The position numbers and the translations under genes were made by a program. 64,000 nucleotides of DNA from Planctomycetota bacterium (lineage in GTDB: Bacteria; Planctomycetota; Planctomycetia; Gemmatales; Gemmataceae), in assembly GCA_021413735.1 (NCBI GenBank), contig JAIOPV010000039.1:1-64000 (forward strand). Reading direction: 5' to 3'. Below the pieces are notes generated by a model. It did not search any database, was not told the DNA's origin, and was given only the letters and a program-made list of their open reading frames with translations. Of the stretch, positions 19,980 through 36,960 are shown piece by piece (positions within the stretch are counted from its first letter, which is position 1; every line of letters starts with the position of its first letter).

Positions 19980-20026
19980 CCGCCCGCTGTGGCTTCATCG
20001 CGAGTTGATGAAGCCGCAGCGGGCGG
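19980..20026 (+). terminator. Strong hairpin, likely terminator
   Basis: Two 20-base arms (19980-19999 and 20007-20026) pair with a single mismatch around a 7-base loop. The structure starts 25 bases after the stop of the glycine-zipper gene. There is no clear T-run, so it may end transcription with help from other factors or protect the RNA end. Confidence 0.6.
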
Positions 20027-20139
20027 TCGCATTTCGGCCGCTTGCAGTCGCGAGCCGGCCAGCTAAACTGAAACTCATCTCCTGCCTTATCGCTGCCCAA
20101 CCACCAACGACACACCCTCGATTTCGGAGACGCTGCCAG

Positions 20140-21444
20140 ATGTCCATCCGTTACCCGCTCCTCGCGGCCGGCCTTCTGTTCGCTTCAACTGCAATCGCCG
20201 AAGACTGGCCACAATGGCGCGGCCCAGATCGCACCGGCATCTCGAAGGAAACCGGTCTGCTGAAATCCTGGCCCAAGGACGGCCCTACGCTTGTGTGGAC
20301 GGCCAAGAACCTCGGCAACGGTTGGGGCACGCCGTCGGTCGCTGATGGAAAAATCTTCGGCATTGGCACTCGCGAAGGCAAAGACGGCGTTTGGGCCTTG
20401 AAAGAAACCGACGGTTCCGAACTCTGGTTCACCCCGTTCGCCGATCCACCCGCCGCGAAATCGGTCGGCGGTCAAACCAACGGACCAGGCAGCACCCCGA
20501 CCTACAGCAAGGGGAAGGTGTACGCCGTGAGCCATAACGGAACCGTTGTCGCTCTCGACGCCACCAATGGCAAGAAGTCTTGGACGAAGAGCTACATCTC
20601 GGACTTTGGCGGTAGTCTCCCCAGGTGGGGTTTCAACGACTCAGTCTTGATTGACGAAGATAAAGTGATCTGCGCTCCCGGTGGACCGAAGGCGGCGTTG
20701 GCGGCGCTGAAGGCAGACACCGGAGCCACAATCTGGACGACCGATGCTGGCGACGTGAGTGGGGGGCAGGGGTATTCGTCGCCGATCAAGGCAACCATCG
20801 GCAACGTCCCGATGTACATCATCCTGACCGGAGCGAAGGGCGGAATCATGGGCGTCAACGCCAAGACCGGCAAGATGCTCTGGAAGTACAACAACACTCC
20901 GGCGGCTGGCGGTGTCGCACAAATCCCGACTCCCCTCGTAATGGGGGATCTGGTGTGGGTGTCGTGCAGTTATGGGGGCGGTTCTGCGTTGATTCAGATC
21001 ACATCGTCGGGCAAAGACAAGTTCGATGTGAAAGAGATCAAGGCGTACAAGAAGCCGGAACTGAACAACCACCACTGCGGCATGGTGCAAGTTGGCGACT
21101 ACATTTACTTCGGGCACGACCAGAACAAGGGTTTCCCGGTGTGCGTCGAGTTCAAGACGGGGGCGATCAAGTGGGGTCCGGAGAAGAACCCCGCCGGTGC
21201 GGATGGCTCAGCCGCTGTGGTCTTCGCTGATGGTCGGCTCTACTTCCGCTACCAAAACGGTATGCTGGTTCTGATTGAACCGTCTCCGGATGAACTCAAG
21301 GTAGTGTCCTCGTTCAAGCTCCCAGCACCATCCGAGAAAGGCTACCCGCAGAGCTGGCCACACCCGGTTGTCGCCAACGGCAAACTCTACATTCGCGATC
21401 AGAACGCAATGTACTGCTACAACGTGAAAGCCGACAAGAACTGA
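20140..21444 (+). CDS. Exported PQQ-type beta-propeller protein (first of tandem pair)
   Basis: The protein has 434 residues from the ATG at 20140, with GGAGA upstream and a Sec signal ending at TAIAEDW. The mature part opens with the DWPQWRGPDRTGISKETG segment found in many planctomycete PQQ-like repeat proteins. Repeated blades follow with motifs such as GKVYAVSHNGTVVALDATNGKKSW, TGKMLWKYN and GRLYFRYQNGMLVLIEP. PQQ or cofactor binding is not demonstrated by these motifs; many such proteins are structural propellers. It is followed by a close paralogue 85 bases downstream and then by msrA, all on the plus strand. Confidence 0.9.
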   Translation: MSIRYPLLAAGLLFASTAIAEDWPQWRGPDRTGISKETGLLKSWPKDGPTLVWTAKNLGNGWGTPSVADGKIFGIGTREGKDGVWALKETDGSELWFTPFADPPAAKSVGGQTNGPGSTPTYSKGKVYAVSHNGTVVALDATNGKKSWTKSYISDFGGSLPRWGFNDSVLIDEDKVICAPGGPKAALAALKADTGATIWTTDAGDVSGGQGYSSPIKATIGNVPMYIILTGAKGGIMGVNAKTGKMLWKYNNTPAAGGVAQIPTPLVMGDLVWVSCSYGGGSALIQITSSGKDKFDVKEIKAYKKPELNNHHCGMVQVGDYIYFGHDQNKGFPVCVEFKTGAIKWGPEKNPAGADGSAAVVFADGRLYFRYQNGMLVLIEPSPDELKVVSSFKLPAPSEKGYPQSWPHPVVANGKLYIRDQNAMYCYNVKADKN

Positions 21445-21529
21445 TCCCACCGTTTTGAAAGTGCCCCCAGGCCGTTGGCCTGGGATCTTAGGCTCGTGGA
21501 CTTGTCCCACCTCTTTCGGAGCTTCCCAC

Positions 21530-22795
21530 ATGAAGCGTTTCGCTCTCTCCTTGTGCTTCGCACTTACACTCGCGCTCACTTTGACTGCTTCCGACTGGCC
21601 ACAGTGGCGAGGGCCGGACCGCACCGGCATCTCGAAGGAAACCGGCCTCCTCAAGACGTGGCCCAAGGACGGCCCGCCCGTGGTGTGGACCGTGAAGGGT
21701 TGCGGCAATGGCTTCTCGTCCATCGCTGTTGCCGACGGCGTGATCTACGGTACCGGTGCGAAAGGCGGCAAGAACATCGCCTGGGCCAAGAAGGAATCCG
21801 ACGGCAGCGACATCTGGACAACGCCGTACGCCAACGAAGGCGGCGACCCGAACAGCACGGTGGTTGTGAGCGGTGGGAAGGTTTACGCGATGACGGTCGG
21901 TGGCACCCTCGCGTGCCTCGATACCAAGGGCAAGGTGGTCTGGTCGAAGAGTTTCAAGAAGGATCTCGAAGGAAAGATGATGTCGGGTTGGGGCTACAGC
22001 GAGACGCCTTTGATCGACGGCGACAAGTTGATCTGCACGCCGGGCGGTGACAAGGGTGCAGTCGTGGCGTTGAACAAGGACGACGGCAAGGAACTCTGGA
22101 AGTGCGACATCAAGGATGCGGGCGGCGCGGGCTACGCCTCGCCAATCAAGGCCGTGGTCGGCGGCGTTCCGATGTACATCACGCTGCTTGGGAAGACCGG
22201 TGGCGTGGTGGCGGTTCACGCGGACACGGGCAAATTGCTCTGGCAGTACGCGAAGATCAATAACGGCACCGCGAACATTCCGACCATCGTGACCCGCGAC
22301 GATCTTGTGTGGTGTTCGACGGGCTACGGCGACGGCGGCAGCGCTCTGCTCAAGATGAAGGCCGACAGCAAAACAGAAGTGAGCGTTACCGAAGTGGTGA
22401 AGTACAAGAGCGGCGAGCTCCAGAACCACCACGGCGGCATGATTCTGGTCGGCGATTACGTCTACTTCGGCAACGCCCACAACGCCGGTCACCCGGCGTG
22501 TGTGGAGTTCAAGACGGGTGAGATCAAGTACAAGGAGCCGAAAGCGGTAGCGGGTGGTGGTGGCTCGGCGGCTGTCGTCTACGCCGACGGGAGGCTGTAC
22601 TACCGTTATCAGAATGGGGTGGTGGCTTTGATCGAAGCGAACCCCAAGGAGATGGTGCTTGCGGGTTCGTTCAAGGAGAAAGAAGCGAGCGGTCGCGAAT
22701 GCTGGGCACACCCTGTCATCGCCAACGGCAAACTCTACCTCCGCGATCAGGACAAGCTCGTCTGTTATAATGTGAAATCGCCCGACAAGAACTGA
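21530..22795 (+). CDS. Exported PQQ-type beta-propeller protein (second of tandem pair)
   Basis: The protein has 421 residues from the ATG at 21530, with a signal peptide ending near LTLTASDW. It repeats the architecture of its upstream neighbour, beginning DWPQWRGPDRTGISKETG and sharing the same series of blades, for example GKVYAMTVGGTLACLDTKGKVVW, HADTGKLLWQY and GRLYYRYQNGVVALIEA. DNA similarity is high around the N-terminal signature, consistent with tandem duplication. Function and ligand are unknown. The msrA gene begins 68 bases after its stop codon. Confidence 0.9.
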   Translation: MKRFALSLCFALTLALTLTASDWPQWRGPDRTGISKETGLLKTWPKDGPPVVWTVKGCGNGFSSIAVADGVIYGTGAKGGKNIAWAKKESDGSDIWTTPYANEGGDPNSTVVVSGGKVYAMTVGGTLACLDTKGKVVWSKSFKKDLEGKMMSGWGYSETPLIDGDKLICTPGGDKGAVVALNKDDGKELWKCDIKDAGGAGYASPIKAVVGGVPMYITLLGKTGGVVAVHADTGKLLWQYAKINNGTANIPTIVTRDDLVWCSTGYGDGGSALLKMKADSKTEVSVTEVVKYKSGELQNHHGGMILVGDYVYFGNAHNAGHPACVEFKTGEIKYKEPKAVAGGGGSAAVVYADGRLYYRYQNGVVALIEANPKEMVLAGSFKEKEASGRECWAHPVIANGKLYLRDQDKLVCYNVKSPDKN

Positions 22796-23944: not shown

Positions 23945-24465
23945 CTTTAGTATCGCTAAAGCATTACTGGTGTGTTGATTGCGATCCGTTGGGCGACCCG
24001 TTCGCGTGCTGTGACATAACTTGCATCGACTATACTGATAGAAATAGTGATAAATACCAACGGTGATGCTTCATTTTCTTCATTCGGGATGCGACTTTGG
24101 CACGTGGGAGTGGGGCTGCCGTTTATCTGAACGTTCTTACTTCCGGACGAATCGAATGGTTCCGGACTCAGATTCGATTATTGCATCAGAATAATTGATC
24201 GCAACTGATTCAAAATAATAGGGTTACATACATTCTGACGTGGTTTCTTCCGGACGAATGAGATGGTTCCGGGGCTGGACGATGGTTCCGGACGTGGATT
24301 CGATTATGGTTTCAGAATAATTCGTCGCAACTGATTCCAAGGTATTGGCTTACATACATTCTGACGCTGTTTCTTCCGGACGAGGACGATGGTTCCGGAC
24401 CTGAAACGGTTGTTTCCGGACGAGGGGTGGGGAAGTGGGCCGGAACCAATGAGAACCACAGCGAC
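23945..24465. repeat. AT-rich intergenic region with tandem TTCCGGACGA repeats
   Basis: This 520-base gap is clearly richer in AT than its surroundings. From 24141 it contains tandem units, each opened by TTCCGGACGA (24141, 24248, 24374, and a partial copy at 24414). Two units carry a matching 70-base core (24171-24240 and 24297-24366) with GATTCGATTAT, TCAGAATAATT and CATTCTGACG. A related unit in inverted orientation lies at 36742-36839. I see no gene. The block from 23945 to about 24120 is unremarkable. Confidence 0.8.
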
Positions 24466-26622
24466 TCACTTCTGGGCGAGCGAGTTTGACTTGCGAGCGT
24501 AGAGAGTCCATCGACCGACGTGTTCGACCACCTCGAACGATTCCTGCAAAATCGGCTCGACGCGGCTCGATGCGGATGGGTGGAGTTGGGCCAGGCTCAT
24601 GAGGGCGTTGTGATCCACAAAGACTCGCTCGGAGTTTCGCAGATCCTCGACGCAGCGCTCCAACAGAATCGGCGAGTGAACCAGGAAGAACGGCTGCCAC
24701 GAGAGTCGCGGAGCGCGACCCGCTGCAGCGAGGAAGCTCCAGTCGTGGCGCGAAATGACCGTGACCCGTTCCGTTGGGGTCGTGTTATCACGCAGATACG
24801 CGACAGCTTCCTCATCGAACGGAGCTGGCCAATCCTTGCGAACGATCTCGCGGCGAGTGGCGTTGATCGGATTCGGGAAGGTGTCGAGGCGGTTCACGAT
24901 TCGAACGAGCGGCGAAGTCGTGCGGAGCAGGGGATCGGGGTGAGCCGTGCGAGCGTCGAACCGTCCCGCGACGAGAATCAACGCGATGACGACCGCACCC
25001 AATGCGAACCGCGAGGGTAGCCCGCGAGAGAGTGTTGCCTCTCGCCACGCGGTCCATGCCCACCACCCCGCGACAGCCAACACCAAACCGCCGTTGAGCG
25101 CCCACAGAATGTCGATGGAACGATTCACCCATTTCGTGAGCATCGCAAGCCCGAGCAGCGACGCCACCGCAGCGTAGACCACACCACGCGGAGGAACGCG
25201 CCCTCTCCCGTACCCAATCATCGCGCTGACAGAGGCAATCGCCACTCCGGGACCGATCAGGTTGAACCAGTAGCTCCAGCCTGCACGCCAGTTCAAGAGG
25301 GTCGTGCCGAACCCCGTTGCGTAGAGCCGCAGCGGTTCAAGCAATCGCTCGGCAAAGGTGACAGTCAACACCCGCGGCCCGAACAGTACGAGGCAAAGTG
25401 CGAGGAAGACGCCAAACCCAGTTGCGACAAACACGCCGGGCTTCCACCACGAACCGCCCAGGAAGACCGCGTTCGCGAGATACAACGCCGCACCAGCCGC
25501 GAGCGTGAACAGGCCGATATCCGTTTGCCAGAACAGCGACAATCCGCCGACCGCTCCCGCAGCAACGCACCATCGCGAATTATCCGTTCCACGCACAGCA
25601 CAGAAGAGAAACGCGAACGCGAAAGGATGCCGCACGGGCCAGCACGATGGCATCTGATACGCGAGCCCTTCGGTTGCCATAGCCGCGAGTCCGAGCGTGA
25701 CGACGAGCGCCGCCCACGGGTTCTGGAGCCAGTCCGTAAGGACGAGTTGTGCCGTGAGGACGTACGCGATGGAGACGATCAGCACGAACAGCACGAAGCG
25801 TTCGAGAACGCTCTGGTAGCCGCCGCTTCCCATGACGCACGAGAAAGCGTAGGCGTGCCCGATGCCGTAATGAGACTCGAAATCCAGGCCCGGAACGACT
25901 TCTGGTGCCCGGTAGTATTGTGCTGGCCCAACGAGATACGACGCGACGTGCGACTCGACATTGCATTCCCACGCGGTCGCGGCGAGATCAGCCGGCGCGA
26001 ACACACCATAGAGCAGAGCCGCGAGCGGAAGGCAAAGCGTGATAGCGCTGGGCCACATTCTCGCTGACGGCGACCCGTCCGCAATTCCGGCTCCCCCTTC
26101 CTTCTTAGGGAAGGGGGTTGGGGGGTTAGGTTCTTTCGAAGACCCCTCCCCAACCCCTCCCCCAAGGGGAGAGGGGCTTAAAACAAAGCTCGGAGATCTG
26201 GGTCTCCTCGTGAGCAGCGGAATCGTGAGTATCCCCACACAAGTCAGCATCTTCCCGAGAACCAGCTTCCCCGCGAACACACTGCGACACATCCCCGTCG
26301 CAGCCGGGATGAACACGATCACCGCCATCGCAATTAGGCACGGCGACGGTCGAGCGAATCGCGTCGCGGCCCATCCGCCCAGCGCACCCGCAACGCACAC
26401 GAACACATACCACGACTGTTCGTAGTGCTCCTGCCAGGGCACGATCTCATACGGCTGAAGGTACTCGCAGCGTAGCAGCGCGGGGTGCGAGCGGTTCTGC
26501 GTGTCGCCATTGACAGCGATCATCGCAGCGGTCGCGGTCGTGGCGAGAAGCACGCCCCAGCAGACGCCCCACGCCGCTACAGCGAGTCGGCGAAGTGGCG
26601 AATTCAGATGTATCGAGATCAT
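24466..26622 (-). CDS. Polytopic membrane protein, possibly GT-C-type glycosyltransferase (copy A)
   Basis: The ATG at 26622 overlaps the stop of the upstream paralogue (ATGA at 26619-26622), fixing the start and giving 718 residues. The protein has many hydrophobic segments, consistent with about ten or more membrane helices, and a soluble C-terminal part. Conserved blocks shared with its neighbour are GDTQ, VPWQEHYE, ASYLVGPAQYYRAP, GLDFESHYGIGHAY, SLFWQTDIGLFTLAAG and KWVNRSIDILWALNGG. The layout and the GT2 gene upstream suggest a polyprenyl-phosphate-sugar-dependent transferase, but I do not recognise the exact family. An in-frame palindromic repeat inserted at about 26090-26190 lengthens one loop. 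Confidence 0.75.
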   Translation of the reverse strand: MISIHLNSPLRRLAVAAWGVCWGVLLATTATAAMIAVNGDTQNRSHPALLRCEYLQPYEIVPWQEHYEQSWYVFVCVAGALGGWAATRFARPSPCLIAMAVIVFIPAATGMCRSVFAGKLVLGKMLTCVGILTIPLLTRRPRSPSFVLSPSPLGGGVGEGSSKEPNPPTPFPKKEGGAGIADGSPSARMWPSAITLCLPLAALLYGVFAPADLAATAWECNVESHVASYLVGPAQYYRAPEVVPGLDFESHYGIGHAYAFSCVMGSGGYQSVLERFVLFVLIVSIAYVLTAQLVLTDWLQNPWAALVVTLGLAAMATEGLAYQMPSCWPVRHPFAFAFLFCAVRGTDNSRWCVAAGAVGGLSLFWQTDIGLFTLAAGAALYLANAVFLGGSWWKPGVFVATGFGVFLALCLVLFGPRVLTVTFAERLLEPLRLYATGFGTTLLNWRAGWSYWFNLIGPGVAIASVSAMIGYGRGRVPPRGVVYAAVASLLGLAMLTKWVNRSIDILWALNGGLVLAVAGWWAWTAWREATLSRGLPSRFALGAVVIALILVAGRFDARTAHPDPLLRTTSPLVRIVNRLDTFPNPINATRREIVRKDWPAPFDEEAVAYLRDNTTPTERVTVISRHDWSFLAAAGRAPRLSWQPFFLVHSPILLERCVEDLRNSERVFVDHNALMSLAQLHPSASSRVEPILQESFEVVEHVGRWTLYARKSNSLAQK
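26090..26190. repeat. Palindromic repeat inserted in frame inside a membrane-protein gene
   Basis: A G/C-tract-rich segment with internal palindromes (CCCCTTCC...GGAAGGGG and CTCCCC...GGGGAG) is read in frame on the minus strand as SPSPLGGGVGEG and NPPTPFPKKEGG. The paralogue at 26619 has a shorter, unrelated linker between the same two conserved segments (IPLLT and ARMW/RMW). The peptide resembles the mistranslation products of intergenic GC-rich repeats common in bacteria. Confidence 0.7.
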
Positions 26623-28751
26623 CGTTGTGCCAACTGGCCGGGTTTGCGGAAGTAAACGTGCCACTGACACGGGGTCCATTCCGGCGGTCCGAAGTCTTCA
26701 TCGAGAACGGTGGAAACCTGTTGGTATGCAGTCGGGTTCACCTTGCACAGCGAGGGTAGCGCATCGCAATGAACGAACACGCGGTCCGAGGTTCGGATGT
26801 CATCAACGCAGCGTTCCAGCAAGACCGGCGAATGCACGAGGAAGAGCTGAACCCAGTGCAATTTCGGAGCGCGACCAGCTGCTGCGAGGTATCCCCAATC
26901 ACGCGGCGCAATGACCGTGACCCGCTCGGCCTTGCGGGTGTTCGCCCGTAGGAAAGTGATCGTGTCCGTGTCGAGTGGAACTGGCGTCGGCTTCGCGACG
27001 AGACCCTTCCGGGCCGCGTTGATCGGGTTTGTTGCAACGTCCAGTCGATCACAAACCCGAACCAGCGGTGATGAACTGCCGCCCTGATATTTCGTGGTCG
27101 CTTCGAGTCGATCCTCCCGGGCACCGAGCACCGCAAGCCAGAGTAGCCCCGCGAGAACCGCGGCCTTTCGGGCGGAGCCGAGCAGCGGTCGCTTCTCGCT
27201 GTCCAGATGTTTCGCCACGACTTGCCAGAGAACGCACGCCCAACAACCAGCCACTGCAAGCACAAGACCGCCATTCAAGGCCCAAACAACATCAATCGAC
27301 CGGTTCACCCATTTGATGAGCATGGCGAGCCCGAGCAGCGAAGCCGCTGCGGCGTACAACGTCGCTCGCGGGAGTGTTTCCCCGCGACGACATCCGATCC
27401 ACGCCGCCACTGATGCAACCGCCAGCCCAGGCCCGGCGATGTTGTACCAGTAGCCCCACGACGAATGCCAGTTGAACAACTGATTCCCGAAGCCGGTGCC
27501 GTACAGCAGCAACGGTTCCAGCAACCGCTGACAGAACTGCACAGAAAGCACTCGCGGTCCGAACAGCACGAGGCAAATGGCCGCGAATGTTCCGAATCCG
27601 CCCGCGAGGAATGTCAGCAGTCGCCAGGCGGACCCGCGAAGGAAAAGTGCGTTCGCGATATACAGAGCGATGCCCGCAGCGAGCGTGTAGATGCCGATGT
27701 CGGTTTGCCAGAACAGCGACACGCCGGCGACCGCTCCCGCAGCTGCACACCACCGTTTGCAATCGACGCCACGCACGGCACAGAACAGGAACGCGAACAC
27801 GAACGGATGACGCACCGGCCAGTTCGAGGGATAGCGATAACTGACGCCTTCAAACACGGCAGCGAGCAGCAGCATCGTGACGACCAACGCAGCCCACGGA
27901 TTCCGCAGCCAGTCGGTGAGCACCAGAAACCCCGAGAGCAAATACAGCATGGTGACGACCACCACGAACGCGATGTATCGCTCCATCGTGCGCTCGAAGC
28001 CGTGGCTCCCCATCACGAGCGAGAACGTGTAAGCGTGTCCGATGCCGTAGTGCGACTCGAAATCCAGGCCCGGCACGGCATTCGGTGCTCGGTAGTACAG
28101 CGCCGGCCCAACGAGATACGAGGCAACGTGCGACTCGGTGTAGCATTCGCCTGCGGCAGTTGGTAGATCGTGCGGAGCGAGCAAGCCATACAGCAAAGCC
28201 GTGAGCGGCAGACACAGCACGCCGGTGTGAATCCACATTCGTTTCGACGAACTGGATGTGTCAGCGAGAGACTGCAACGTAACCACTTCTTCGTTTACTT
28301 TTCGTGTTCGCCCAATGCACGTGAGCAACGGGATCGCAAGCAAGCCAGCACAAAGCAGCACCTGCTCTGCGTCGGGTGTCACGGAGAACGCGGATGCACA
28401 CGCAGGAACAACCGCCGGCACAAAGATAATTGCCGCGAGCGCAGCCAGCACCGGCGATGGTCGTACAAAACGAACCGCAGCCCAACCTCCGAGTGCCCCG
28501 CCGACGCACACCATCGCATACCACATGCGCTCGTAACGTTCTTGCCACGGCACAACGACAAACGCAGCCATCGACTCGGAGTTTAGAATGTCGGGGTGTG
28601 CTTGATCCTGCGTATCGCCCGTGATGGCAACGTGAGTCACCACGACGGCTGAGGCGAGCAGGATCCCCCAGCAGACGCCCCACGCGGCTACCGCCAGTCG
28701 GGAAAGCAACTCAGTTGGCATTCTGGTGGAATCGGGAGTGGGGTTGTTCAT
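26619..28751 (-). CDS. Polytopic membrane protein, possibly GT-C-type glycosyltransferase (copy B)
   Basis: The protein has 710 residues from the ATG at 28751, seven bases after the GT2 stop codon. A TTG at 28769 is an alternative overlapping start. It is a paralogue of the downstream gene, with the same order of hydrophobic segments and the blocks VPWQERYERMWY, ASYLVGPALYYRAP, GLDFESHYGIGHAY, SLFWQTDIGIYTLAAG and KWVNRSIDVVWALNGG. The soluble C-terminal section contains LVHSPVLLERCVDDIRTSDRV, also shared. Coupling to GT2 upstream and copy B downstream implies one operon. A role in transferring lipid-linked sugar at the outer face of the cytoplasmic membrane is inferred only from context. Confidence 0.75.
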   Translation of the reverse strand: MNNPTPDSTRMPTELLSRLAVAAWGVCWGILLASAVVVTHVAITGDTQDQAHPDILNSESMAAFVVVPWQERYERMWYAMVCVGGALGGWAAVRFVRPSPVLAALAAIIFVPAVVPACASAFSVTPDAEQVLLCAGLLAIPLLTCIGRTRKVNEEVVTLQSLADTSSSSKRMWIHTGVLCLPLTALLYGLLAPHDLPTAAGECYTESHVASYLVGPALYYRAPNAVPGLDFESHYGIGHAYTFSLVMGSHGFERTMERYIAFVVVVTMLYLLSGFLVLTDWLRNPWAALVVTMLLLAAVFEGVSYRYPSNWPVRHPFVFAFLFCAVRGVDCKRWCAAAGAVAGVSLFWQTDIGIYTLAAGIALYIANALFLRGSAWRLLTFLAGGFGTFAAICLVLFGPRVLSVQFCQRLLEPLLLYGTGFGNQLFNWHSSWGYWYNIAGPGLAVASVAAWIGCRRGETLPRATLYAAAASLLGLAMLIKWVNRSIDVVWALNGGLVLAVAGCWACVLWQVVAKHLDSEKRPLLGSARKAAVLAGLLWLAVLGAREDRLEATTKYQGGSSSPLVRVCDRLDVATNPINAARKGLVAKPTPVPLDTDTITFLRANTRKAERVTVIAPRDWGYLAAAGRAPKLHWVQLFLVHSPVLLERCVDDIRTSDRVFVHCDALPSLCKVNPTAYQQVSTVLDEDFGPPEWTPCQWHVYFRKPGQLAQR

Positions 28752-28758
28752 GCTCGGC

Positions 28759-29511
28759 TCACGCTGCAATCGGTTGTGTGCGAATGACAGTCGGCACTGT
28801 CGCGAAGCGAACCTTCTCGCGGAACACCACGAACCGCAGGAATTGCCTGCTCATCGTGGCGATCAGTCGTGCGAGCACGCCGAGCCGCATCACCTTCGAG
28901 GAACTGTCTGGTCGCGGGTTCAACTCGACCGGCACTTCCGTGTAGTCCACGCCGCCGCGAAGCAAAGTCGAAAGCGTCTCGATGTGGTAGCCGTAGCCGG
29001 TGTTTCGCCGCACCTGCCGCGCCTGGGCCACCGGGAACACGTACAGGCTGTGAGCGTCGCGGATCGGTCGGCCCGTGACAACTCGCATCGCTTGCGTGCA
29101 GCACACGGAAAGCAACCGACGCATCGGCGTGCGTGCTCGCGGATTCGCACGGTAGGTCACGACCATTTCCACCTTCCCGACAAGCGAGAAGACAGCATCG
29201 AGGCCGCTTTCGTGGAATGCGTTGTCGCCGGGAACGAGGGTCAAGTATGGGAAGCGTGCTCGTGTGAGGCCCGTGTGGAACGCGGCACCAACCCCAAGGT
29301 TCGTTGCGTGTTTCACAACGGAGACACACGGAAACTGCATCGACAATCGCCTGGCAACCTCGGCAGTGCGGTCTGTGCTGCCGTCGTCGATGATGATGAC
29401 TTCAAAGTCGGTGAGGTGACGGTGGGCGGCAGCGACCACACTCGTAACGGTGGTTGCGAGCCGTCGTTCTTCGTTCCACGCCGGCACCAACAGCGTCAAC
29501 CCCGTTGACAT
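28759..29511 (-). CDS. Family 2 glycosyltransferase, polyprenyl-phosphate-sugar synthase-like
   Basis: The ATG at 29511 has a GGAGG site seven bases upstream and gives 250 residues. The GT-A fold motifs are LTLLVPAWNEERRL at the start, VIIIDDGSTDRTAEVARRL (nucleotide-sugar binding, DDGSTD) and a TLVPGDNAFHESGL segment in the position of the metal-binding loop. This resembles dolichol/polyprenyl-phosphate mannose or glucose synthases, which load a sugar onto a lipid carrier at the cytoplasmic face. No membrane helices follow the catalytic domain. It is the first gene of the minus-strand operon with the two large membrane proteins, which could use its product. Confidence 0.88.
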   Translation of the reverse strand: MSTGLTLLVPAWNEERRLATTVTSVVAAAHRHLTDFEVIIIDDGSTDRTAEVARRLSMQFPCVSVVKHATNLGVGAAFHTGLTRARFPYLTLVPGDNAFHESGLDAVFSLVGKVEMVVTYRANPRARTPMRRLLSVCCTQAMRVVTGRPIRDAHSLYVFPVAQARQVRRNTGYGYHIETLSTLLRGGVDYTEVPVELNPRPDSSSKVMRLGVLARLIATMSRQFLRFVVFREKVRFATVPTVIRTQPIAA

Positions 29512-29986
29512 TTGCGCCCTCCCTGGCTGGCGACACCTGATACCCGCAATCGGGGGATGTGGGCAAGATGAACCGGAGAGGCCGATGGGTATGAACGTTT
29601 GGGGGGAGTCAAGCAATCTGGAGGTTTCTCATCGGTTCCGAGCGACAGACACACCCCTATTGACGCCCGAGCTACGGCGGACTCGCCCGATACTGGAGGT
29701 TTCTCATCGGTTCCGAGCGACAGACACACCCCTCTTCCGGAATCGTTTTGGAGGCCGGAATCGATCCATTCGTCCGGAATGACTTTTATTAGAACGATCT
29801 CGACTTGGTCGCATCTCGAAACCGATCAATACCTTGCAACGAGAGATGCCGAAGTAACGCCCTCCGAGGAGTTGCTCAACTTCCGGAATCGTGTGGCACA
29901 CCCAATGCCAGCATCTCATGAACTCGGCTTGCGGGATTTTGTCAAACTGGGGTACGACATCCCAGCTTTGTCAGGAGAAGCCCGTC
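29512..29986. other. Divergent intergenic region containing a 41-base direct repeat
   Basis: This region separates the GT2 gene from the divergent small membrane-protein pair. It contains two identical 41-base copies at 29618-29658 and 29693-29733 (core CATCGGTTCCGAGCGACAGA) and, near 29750-29800, degenerate fragments of the TTCCGGACGA repeat family. A plus-strand frame of 132 codons crosses the repeats but reads the repeat twice as GGFSSVPSDRHTP and is probably not a gene. Confidence 0.6.
29618..29733. repeat. Direct repeat, two identical 41-base copies
   Basis: The copies are at 29618-29658 and 29693-29733, identical base for base and 75 bases apart start to start. They lie in the gap upstream of the GT2 gene. 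Each reads as GFSSVPSDRHTP on the plus strand or as VCLSLGTDEKPP on the minus strand. Confidence 0.85.
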
Positions 29987-30502
29987 ATGACCACTGATTT
30001 TCTTCCATCCGCACCCGTGGCCATGTCTCTTGTGGCGTGCGTGTTGCTGCCGGTGTTCTTGTTGTCGATGTCGCACGGCGTGTTGAGGGTGACTGCCCCC
30101 GGTCGGCGGTTCGTGCTGGCTGCCGGTCTCACCTGGGCAGCGTGGCTCGCCACCCTGCCCGCCACCGCTCCTGATAGTGTTGAGTTGGTGACATCGGTAT
30201 TGCTGCTGGCAACTGCCACGCTTGCGGGATTCACGCTGTGGACGCTCGTAGCATGGGGTTTCACGCTGTCGATGTTGTTGGCGTTGAACCGTGCTCGTGA
30301 ACCGCTCACGGTTGAAGAATGGGCGATGGAGTACACACGCGGGAAGCCGATCGACGCGTTCGCACGCGACCGCCTTGGTGTGCTGTTCAAACTCGGATTG
30401 GCTGAGACTCGCGGCGATGTTGTCGTGATGACTCTGGTTCGCGGGCGACTCTTCGCGAAGGGTGCCGGTGTGCTTCGCAACCTGTTCGGACTCCGCACAT
30501 GA
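29987..30502 (+). CDS. Small membrane protein of unknown function
   Basis: The protein has 171 residues from the ATG at 29987 (AGGAG nine bases upstream). Three hydrophobic segments are visible (about 10-30, 45-60 and 68-98), followed by a soluble C-terminal region with TVEEWAMEYTRGKPIDAFARDRLGVLFKLGLAE. The C-terminal part resembles a small winged-helix-like or regulatory tail by composition only. Its stop overlaps the start of the next gene (ATGA at 30499-30502). The pair is divergent from the GT2/membrane-protein operon, and a shared role in membrane glycan assembly is only an inference from position. I do not recognise the family. Confidence 0.75.
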   Translation: MTTDFLPSAPVAMSLVACVLLPVFLLSMSHGVLRVTAPGRRFVLAAGLTWAAWLATLPATAPDSVELVTSVLLLATATLAGFTLWTLVAWGFTLSMLLALNRAREPLTVEEWAMEYTRGKPIDAFARDRLGVLFKLGLAETRGDVVVMTLVRGRLFAKGAGVLRNLFGLRT

Positions 30503-31044
30503 ACTCGCTTCTCGTTGGGCTTGCTTGCTTCGCAGCGCACGTTGCAGTCACGCTGATCTGGCTGCGGATTCGTCGCGGGCCATCACCGGTGACGCGACAC
30601 GCGGCATCTGCATTGAGTACGCACATCATTGGTGTGATCGTGGCCGCGAATCTGGTCGAAGGGTTTGCGTACTGGCCTGTCGCTGCGGTGAGTGGCTTCG
30701 GTGCGGTGTGCTTCCTGTTCGCGTTCAGTGCCGTGTACAAATCCGTCTCGCTGCGCATTCTCACACAGCTTGATCGCACACCAGGAAACGCGATTCCGTT
30801 TGTCGTGATTGCACGAGATTACGTTCAGCCAGAGTTTGAGGCTCGCGTCGCTGTCTTGGTGAAGATGGACTGTGCTGCGGAATTGGATGGCGGCTACGTG
30901 GCGACCGAGACCGGAAACACAACGGCCCGCCGAATCGGGGTGATTCAGCGGGCGTGCGGGATCAGAGGCAGTGGGTTGTATTCCGAAAGTGAAGCGACCG
31001 CCCCAACGCGGCGGCCCACCGAAATCACCCAATCATTTCCTTGA
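30499..31044 (+). CDS. Small membrane protein of unknown function, coupled to preceding gene
   Basis: The protein has 181 residues, and its ATG overlaps the previous stop (ATGA), so the two are probably translated together. At least three hydrophobic segments lie in the first 85 residues (for example GLACFAAHVAVTLIWL and AAVSGFGAVCFLFAF). A soluble region starting around residue 90 follows (FVVIARDYVQPEFEARVAVLV), then a low-complexity tail. The last 20 bases overlap the 3-prime end of the convergent DUF1501 gene, and the tail reads through a degenerate GC-rich palindrome. The true family is unknown to me. Confidence 0.72.
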   Translation: MNSLLVGLACFAAHVAVTLIWLRIRRGPSPVTRHAASALSTHIIGVIVAANLVEGFAYWPVAAVSGFGAVCFLFAFSAVYKSVSLRILTQLDRTPGNAIPFVVIARDYVQPEFEARVAVLVKMDCAAELDGGYVATETGNTTARRIGVIQRACGIRGSGLYSESEATAPTRRPTEITQSFP

Positions 31045-36682: not shown

Positions 36683-36960
36683 GAGATTGATTCCGGACCA
36701 CTTCCCCACCCCACCTCCGGAACCAATCATTCCCGACCCGGAATCATTTCATTCGTCCGGAAGAAACCACGTCAGAATATGTGTAAACCTTTTACTTAGA
36801 ATCAGTTATGACTGATTATTCTGTTGCAATAATCGAATCCACGGCCGGAACCATTCATTTCCGGCCCGGAACCACAGTTTCAGCTCGGAGCCATCCACAC
36901 TCGTCCGGAAGAAACTCTATCAGAACATCGGTATGGCTCACGATCTGATCGCAAGATTTT
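36683..36960. repeat. Inverted copy of the AT-rich TTCCGGACGA repeat family
   Basis: The segment 36742-36839 matches, as reverse complement, the units at 24141-24366. It includes CATTTCATTCGTCCGGAAGA and a 70-base core at 36770-36839 in the same order (roughly four in five bases identical by eye). Further TCCGGAA fragments continue to about 36910. No gene is visible between the GntR promoter region and the gene ending at 37019. Confidence 0.78.

Follow-up and report, generated by a model that had tools for sequence, protein, structure and literature searches.

Gene organization and repeats of the locus

The window (the whole stretch of DNA that was analysed, 64,000 nucleotides) originates from a planctomycete genome of 9.8 Mb that is 95.7% complete, and contains three closely packed genes on the minus strand. 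The gene of a GT-A-type glycosyltransferase, GT2 (28759..29511; ATG at 29511, stop at 28759; 250 aa), is followed after a 7-base gap by MP1 (26619..28751; ATG at 28751, stop at 26619; 710 aa), encoding a polytopic protein with a predicted GT-C core. MP1 shares a 4-base ATGA overlap with the gene of its paralogue MP2 (24466..26622; ATG at 26622, stop at 24466; 718 aa). Coordinates, order, strand, sizes and spacing of this trio were all as described in an earlier sequence-only reading. Divergently from GT2-MP1-MP2, two small genes with a 4-base overlap are located on the plus strand: orf203 (29987..30502), encoding a small membrane protein of 171 aa when counted from the conserved Met 33, and orf181 (30499..31044), encoding a protein of 181 aa with approximately three TM helices. 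Both accompany the trio in all three genomes that possess the cassette. The sequence-only reading had overlooked this pair, as well as the repeat inside MP2 described below. The genes adjoining the cassette (DUF1501, PSD1 and msrA) revealed no link to glycans. Adjoining msrA, two tandem related proteins are encoded at window positions 20005-22795, which by eye have the look of PQQ-type beta-propellers. A 44-base direct repeat (98% identical; window 29618-29736) is present between GT2 and orf203, and this divergent region is longer here than in the loci L022 and L023.

The linker of MP2 contains a GC-rich palindromic repeat (26074..26190, minus strand, limits approximate) that is read through in frame. 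When up to 3 mismatches were allowed, 52 copies of its 34-base core were found in the genome, and the reversed control gave none. Among 20 of these 52 stretches that were inspected, an ORF of at least 250 aa runs through the repeat copy in 15, with an ORF on both strands in two of the 20, open frames being common in such GC-rich DNA (palindromic-repeat loci L002, L004 and L090-L109). All ten repeat-bearing ORFs that were scanned carry a Pfam domain, and the repeat lies within a single domain in MnmG/GidA (residue 161, domain 18-441) and in an amine oxidase (residue 289, domain 27-500). It is also carried by 3 of the 18 PMT_2 genes of the genome. The element resembles the Rickettsia palindromic elements; in the portions of the literature accessible to our search, nothing clearly described such an element in this group. 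The GC-rich insertion found in this linker of the MP2 orthologue of locus L023 (12082-14250) is a different one, so that the linker seems to accept insertions repeatedly.

A second dispersed repeat, TTTCTTCCGGACGA-N5-ATGGTTCCGGA, was detected in 105 genome copies, with 0 for the reversed control. Copies in the window are located at 24131-24425, where three consecutive copies lie below MP2, spaced by 107 and 126, and at 36737-36762. Inverted repeats round the trio were considered as possible ends of a mobile element and rejected, because their sequence is one of these 105 dispersed copies.

Family assignment, predicted fold and conserved loop of MP1 and MP2

The sequence-only reading was unable to place the membrane pair in a named family, and this was borne out by profile searches. 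MP1 and MP2 gave only chance matches in Pfam and NCBIfam, with no GT-C family at E ≤ 10; no curated GT-C model (PMT, PMT_2, STT3 and others) matched in the HMM comparison that this reading had proposed, and neither protein was among the 18 PMT_2 places of the genome. Likewise, no Pfam family was found for the four MP orthologues. Comparison of PDB sequences with MP1 and with a six-row family profile returned chance matches only, the best single match being a photosystem subunit (E 0.08). In the parts of the open-licence literature that the search covered, no description of such a GT-C family or cassette was found in connection with planctomycetes.

Probable distant relatives outside the orthologues are three uncharacterised proteins, 760-830 aa long, which belong to a different planctomycete family (L020, L025 and L026 in genomes G322, G280 and G117, respectively). 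They share with the MPs a similar order of motifs (first-loop H, VP..D, FW..D.G, RS) and are approximately 20-24% identical to them in the core. They are linked to the MPs by a profile match of E 8e-6 and an hhalign probability of 64 over 93 columns. The relation to L020 (E 8e-6) is called only probable because profile E-values near 1e-4 represent noise in this search. The profile matches in G239, G366 (a transporter-like protein) and G267 (E 4e-4 to 2.5e-3) were judged on reading not to be relatives. The L020/L025/L026 proteins also lack a Pfam family and, unlike the MPs, show no duplicate; in the single case examined (G117, locus L048) no adjoining GT2 was recognised.

Hydropathy analysis of MP1 predicted 12-13 TM segments, of which four precede the core, and a soluble C-terminal domain after it. 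The N-terminal extension with four predicted TM helices comprises residues 1-165 (28257..28751, minus strand), and the C-terminal domain, presumed to be periplasmic, residues 561-710 (26622..27071, minus strand). In this layout the inside loops (RPSP, linker) are basic and the large outside loops acidic.

The fold of MP1 was predicted in two AlphaFold2 runs with six sequences each. The best model of the whole protein reached a pLDDT of 48.3 and a pTM of 0.34, and that of the core (residues 173-560) a pLDDT of 63.2 and a pTM of 0.64, the other models of each run being lower. In Foldseek, the first eight matches of the whole model were GT-C proteins (OST/STT3, ArnT, AglB, AftD; E 2.4e-4 to 0.03), followed by an unrelated ninth match at E 0.25. 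The core model yielded nothing at E ≤ 0.001 (best match ALG3 with E 0.46, PglB second, third and fourth unrelated). In VIA-align, rows 1-44 for the whole model were GT-C-fold proteins, with Pmt1 at the top (Z 13.2, rmsd 4.0, 243 aligned) and the first unrelated protein in row 45 (Z 6.4). For the core, rows 1-43 were GT-C-fold, with ALG3 at the top (Z 16.4, rmsd 4.8, 303 aligned) and the first unrelated protein in row 44 (Z 5.7). For titles that name only a complex (OST, translocon, GPI transamidase), the GT-C-fold subunit was taken as the matching chain. Since the two models agree and the gap in Z is wide, the best reading is that residues ~166-500 of MP1 adopt a GT-C fold, at low to medium model confidence. 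A transporter fold, which would have contradicted the sequence-only reading, was not predicted. The fold is no proof of MP activity, because PIG-U, which has a GT-C fold but is not a glycosyltransferase, occupies rows 2, 3 and 7 of the core search. No GtrA-like structure occurred in the match lists of MP1, and this was not counted as evidence.

MP1 shares a predicted core fold, the start of the core and an acidic first external loop with GT-C (GT-CA) enzymes such as PMT (Pmt1/Pmt4), ALG3, ArnT, PimE, STT3/PglB/AglB and AftA. The MPs differ from these enzymes in having no detectable sequence relation to them, an additional four TM helices ahead of the core and paired copies.

The part of MP1 that matches GT-C proteins begins with residue 166-178, which falls on the first TM helix of these enzymes; the following loop (residues 195-252; 27996..28169, minus strand) was therefore assigned as the putative catalytic loop. 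Residues 45-67, which form the first loop of the N-terminal extension, were excluded from this role, since the match begins only at 166-178. The 195-252 loop is the most conserved region of the six MPs, with 37 of 58 columns invariant, whereas 233 of 621 are invariant elsewhere (p 1.3e-4). The residues E202, E206, H208, D230 and E232 are identical in all six, D230 and E232 forming the DxE of GLDFES. The equivalent loop of MP2 (25816..25989, minus strand; numbering offset by 17 from MP1) retains the acids as E219 and E223. By ungapped extrapolation, D77 of Pmt1 and D47 of yeast STT3 fall on E206 of MP1; the catalytic acids of ArnT, AglB and PglB fall 1-10 residues away from it. The catalytic D58 of PimE, as given in the part of its description consulted (PMC12041525), falls on E206 too, again as an ungapped extrapolation from the aligned start and not as an alignment. 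According to the sections of a review that were available, GT-C enzymes usually carry a DxD or modified DxD motif in an external loop (PMC8035078). The most likely catalytic base would be E206 in MP1 and E223 in MP2.

Differences fixed between the paralogues are enriched in the C-terminal domain (19 of 143 columns versus 36 of 536 elsewhere, gapped columns left out; Fisher p 0.015), and the excess persists on variable columns alone (p 0.022). This weakly suggests that the greatest divergence between MP1 and MP2 lies in a part that might recognise an acceptor, and the excess may be compatible with different acceptors.

Duplication, distribution and selection of the cassette

An alignment of MP1 with MP2 over 719 columns shows 55% identity (394 identities, 725 bits), in agreement with their earlier description as two polytopic paralogues of 710-718 residues. 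The near-invariant blocks noticed in that description, GLDFESHYGIGHAY and SLFWQTDIG, are the same in both proteins, the sole change being V/L before SLFWQTDIG. In a midpoint-rooted tree the six MPs of three genomes split into an MP1 and an MP2 group with support of 100/100; orthologues are 69-72% identical between genomes and paralogues 52-56%. Between species, pN/pS was 0.27-0.37 for the MPs and 0.17 for GT2, which are rough values as synonymous sites are almost saturated with changes (pS 0.52-0.62). The number of identities between MP1 and MP2, the identity of the orthologues and the pN/pS values show that similarity and conservation are not due to chance. The pN/pS of the MPs demonstrates purifying selection on both copies, and the sequences identify MP1 and MP2 as an old duplication of which both copies were kept.

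MP orthologues were found in 3 of 99 genomes searched as relatives (the host genome and two others), all of one genus. Among 392 genomes drawn from the phylum no additional one contained them, except for one distant candidate. The public genome collection returned Planctomycetaceae bacterium DS2.012 and Gemmataceae bacterium CJuql4 (record LR594584), which are the same two relatives. GT2 orthologues of 84-87% identity occur in exactly the MP-bearing genomes (3 of 59), the next-best GT2 match among the 59 being 30-35% identical. Paralogues at this level (in the host genome, G011 and G007) represent a separate, widely kept lineage, because each adjoins the same gene, RNA nucleotidyltransferase-like by eye.

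Gene order and strand are the same in all three genomes: GntR, PSD1 and DUF1501 are followed by orf181 and orf203, which lie on the opposite strand, and these by GT2, MP1 and MP2. In four genus members, whose flanks were inspected out of the 16 lacking the cassette, PSD1 and DUF1501 are present without any of the five cassette genes beside them. For the DUF1501 orthologue, identity is 94-95% within the set of three cassette genomes and 80-86% in 15 other genus members (the best match in the sixteenth member without the cassette is 51%). On the basis of these identities the three genomes look like a sub-clade of the genus.

Mobile carriers were also searched. Against plasmids, tblastn gave no match for MP1, only chance matches for orf181 and orf203 (E 6-8), and for GT2 one 26% match on a Chloroflexota plasmid, where no GT-C partner was evident. 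None of 24 candidates was retained among viral contigs searched with a nine-row profile, and the PHROGs search gave no match.

A putative transmembrane glycosylation system

GT2 had been described as similar to polyprenyl-phosphate-sugar synthases. Its GT-A type was confirmed by the Pfam family Glycos_transf_2 (8.9e-21), but the closest curated synthase-specific models all remained far below their cut-offs. GT2 has one weak hydrophobic stretch near its C-terminus (212-230) and is a candidate polyprenyl-phosphate-sugar synthase.

The flippase GtrA is absent from the host genome and from all 19 genus genomes (the host included), in a search whose control found 7 of 14; in published systems, as far as the excerpts consulted describe them, Wzx, MATE or SMR flippases also serve (PMC8035078, PMC11127046). 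orf203 contains 3-4 hydrophobic segments and matches Pfam only by a sub-threshold MFS_3 hit; orf181 has no Pfam match, and faint matches to it were found in three genomes (E 0.002-0.01). Both proteins have charged tails and are 72-79% identical among the three genomes. Their layouts are alike, hydrophobic segments being followed by a charged tail that appears winged-helix-like by eye, and hhalign revealed no relation between them (probability 1.3). They are candidates for a local flippase or a membrane partner of GT2.

In the proposed mechanism, GT2, acting on the inner side of the membrane, would use a nucleotide donor to attach a sugar to polyprenyl phosphate, and the lipid-linked sugar would then be flipped by a protein other than GtrA, for which orf203 and orf181 are the local candidates. 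MP1 and MP2, GT-C enzymes by predicted fold, would pass the sugar to an external acceptor by means of the putative catalytic acid of the first external loop. Both probably use one donor and may differ in acceptor or work as a pair.

Systems of this general kind are known; the MP family is unnamed. Pairs of GT-A and GT-C enzymes define multi-component transmembrane glycosylation systems, as stated in the sections seen of a review (PMC8035078). The published parts consulted describe the GtrA-GtrB-Gtr*, CsbB-GtcA-YfhO and GT136 pentofuranose systems as having, like the cassette, a GT-A-type enzyme beside a GT-C enzyme (PMC8035078, PMC11127046). The cassette has this feature in the predicted GT-C enzyme adjoining the GT-A gene, an order kept in three genomes. 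In contrast to these systems, it contains two GT-C genes, no GtrA and two small family-less membrane proteins, and is known here from sequence alone.

We consider it probable that the locus encodes such a transmembrane glycosylation system and that MP1 and MP2, as a new family of GT-C proteins, belong to a cassette for polyprenyl-phosphate-sugar transfer. The high rank of PIG-U chains in the core search would also fit a model in which the GT-C fold is present but at least one of the two proteins has no catalytic role and instead binds a lipid or substrate, in the manner of the PIG-U subunit of the GPI transamidase. However, the invariance of E202, E206, D230 and E232 in a loop that is the most conserved region, as well as the GT2 orthologue beside the pair in every cassette genome, argue against this model, which appears unlikely. 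It is very improbable that MP1 and MP2 are transporters instead of transferases: they are polytopic and family-less and the transporter AmtB does occur low in the core list (Z 5.3), but its score is far below that of the GT-C rows. GT2 and the MPs might also act in separate pathways and be neighbours by chance, as the lack of a specific synthase match for GT2 would allow; the 7-base gap, the same order in three species and the confinement of GT2 orthologues to the MP-bearing genomes make such a coincidence quite unlikely.

More room is left for the possibility, doubtful as it is, that only an MP1-MP2 heterodimer is active, as in fungal Pmt1-Pmt2, so that the copies would have no acceptor of their own. 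Two copies with overlapping genes, both kept in all three genomes, are in line with this model, and the first MP1 model matches Pmt1 from the Pmt1-Pmt2 complex best, but Pmt4 homodimers score the same as Pmt1. Rather speculative is an extended form of the glycosylation system proposed here, in which a genus-restricted cassette of five genes would combine the new GT-C family with a new kind of lipid-sugar flippase. Here orf203/orf181 would take the place of GtrA, or else MP1 and MP2 would do so as a heterodimer through their four-TM N-terminal extensions, and one donor would serve two acceptors.

Both the envelope glycans of planctomycetes and their biosynthetic enzymes are poorly charted. As a transmembrane glycosylation system, the cassette would represent a small, self-contained and duplicated GT-C family missed by sequence models. 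It would offer a conserved loop for mutation and a natural test of how two close GT-C enzymes may divide their work without a GtrA flippase.
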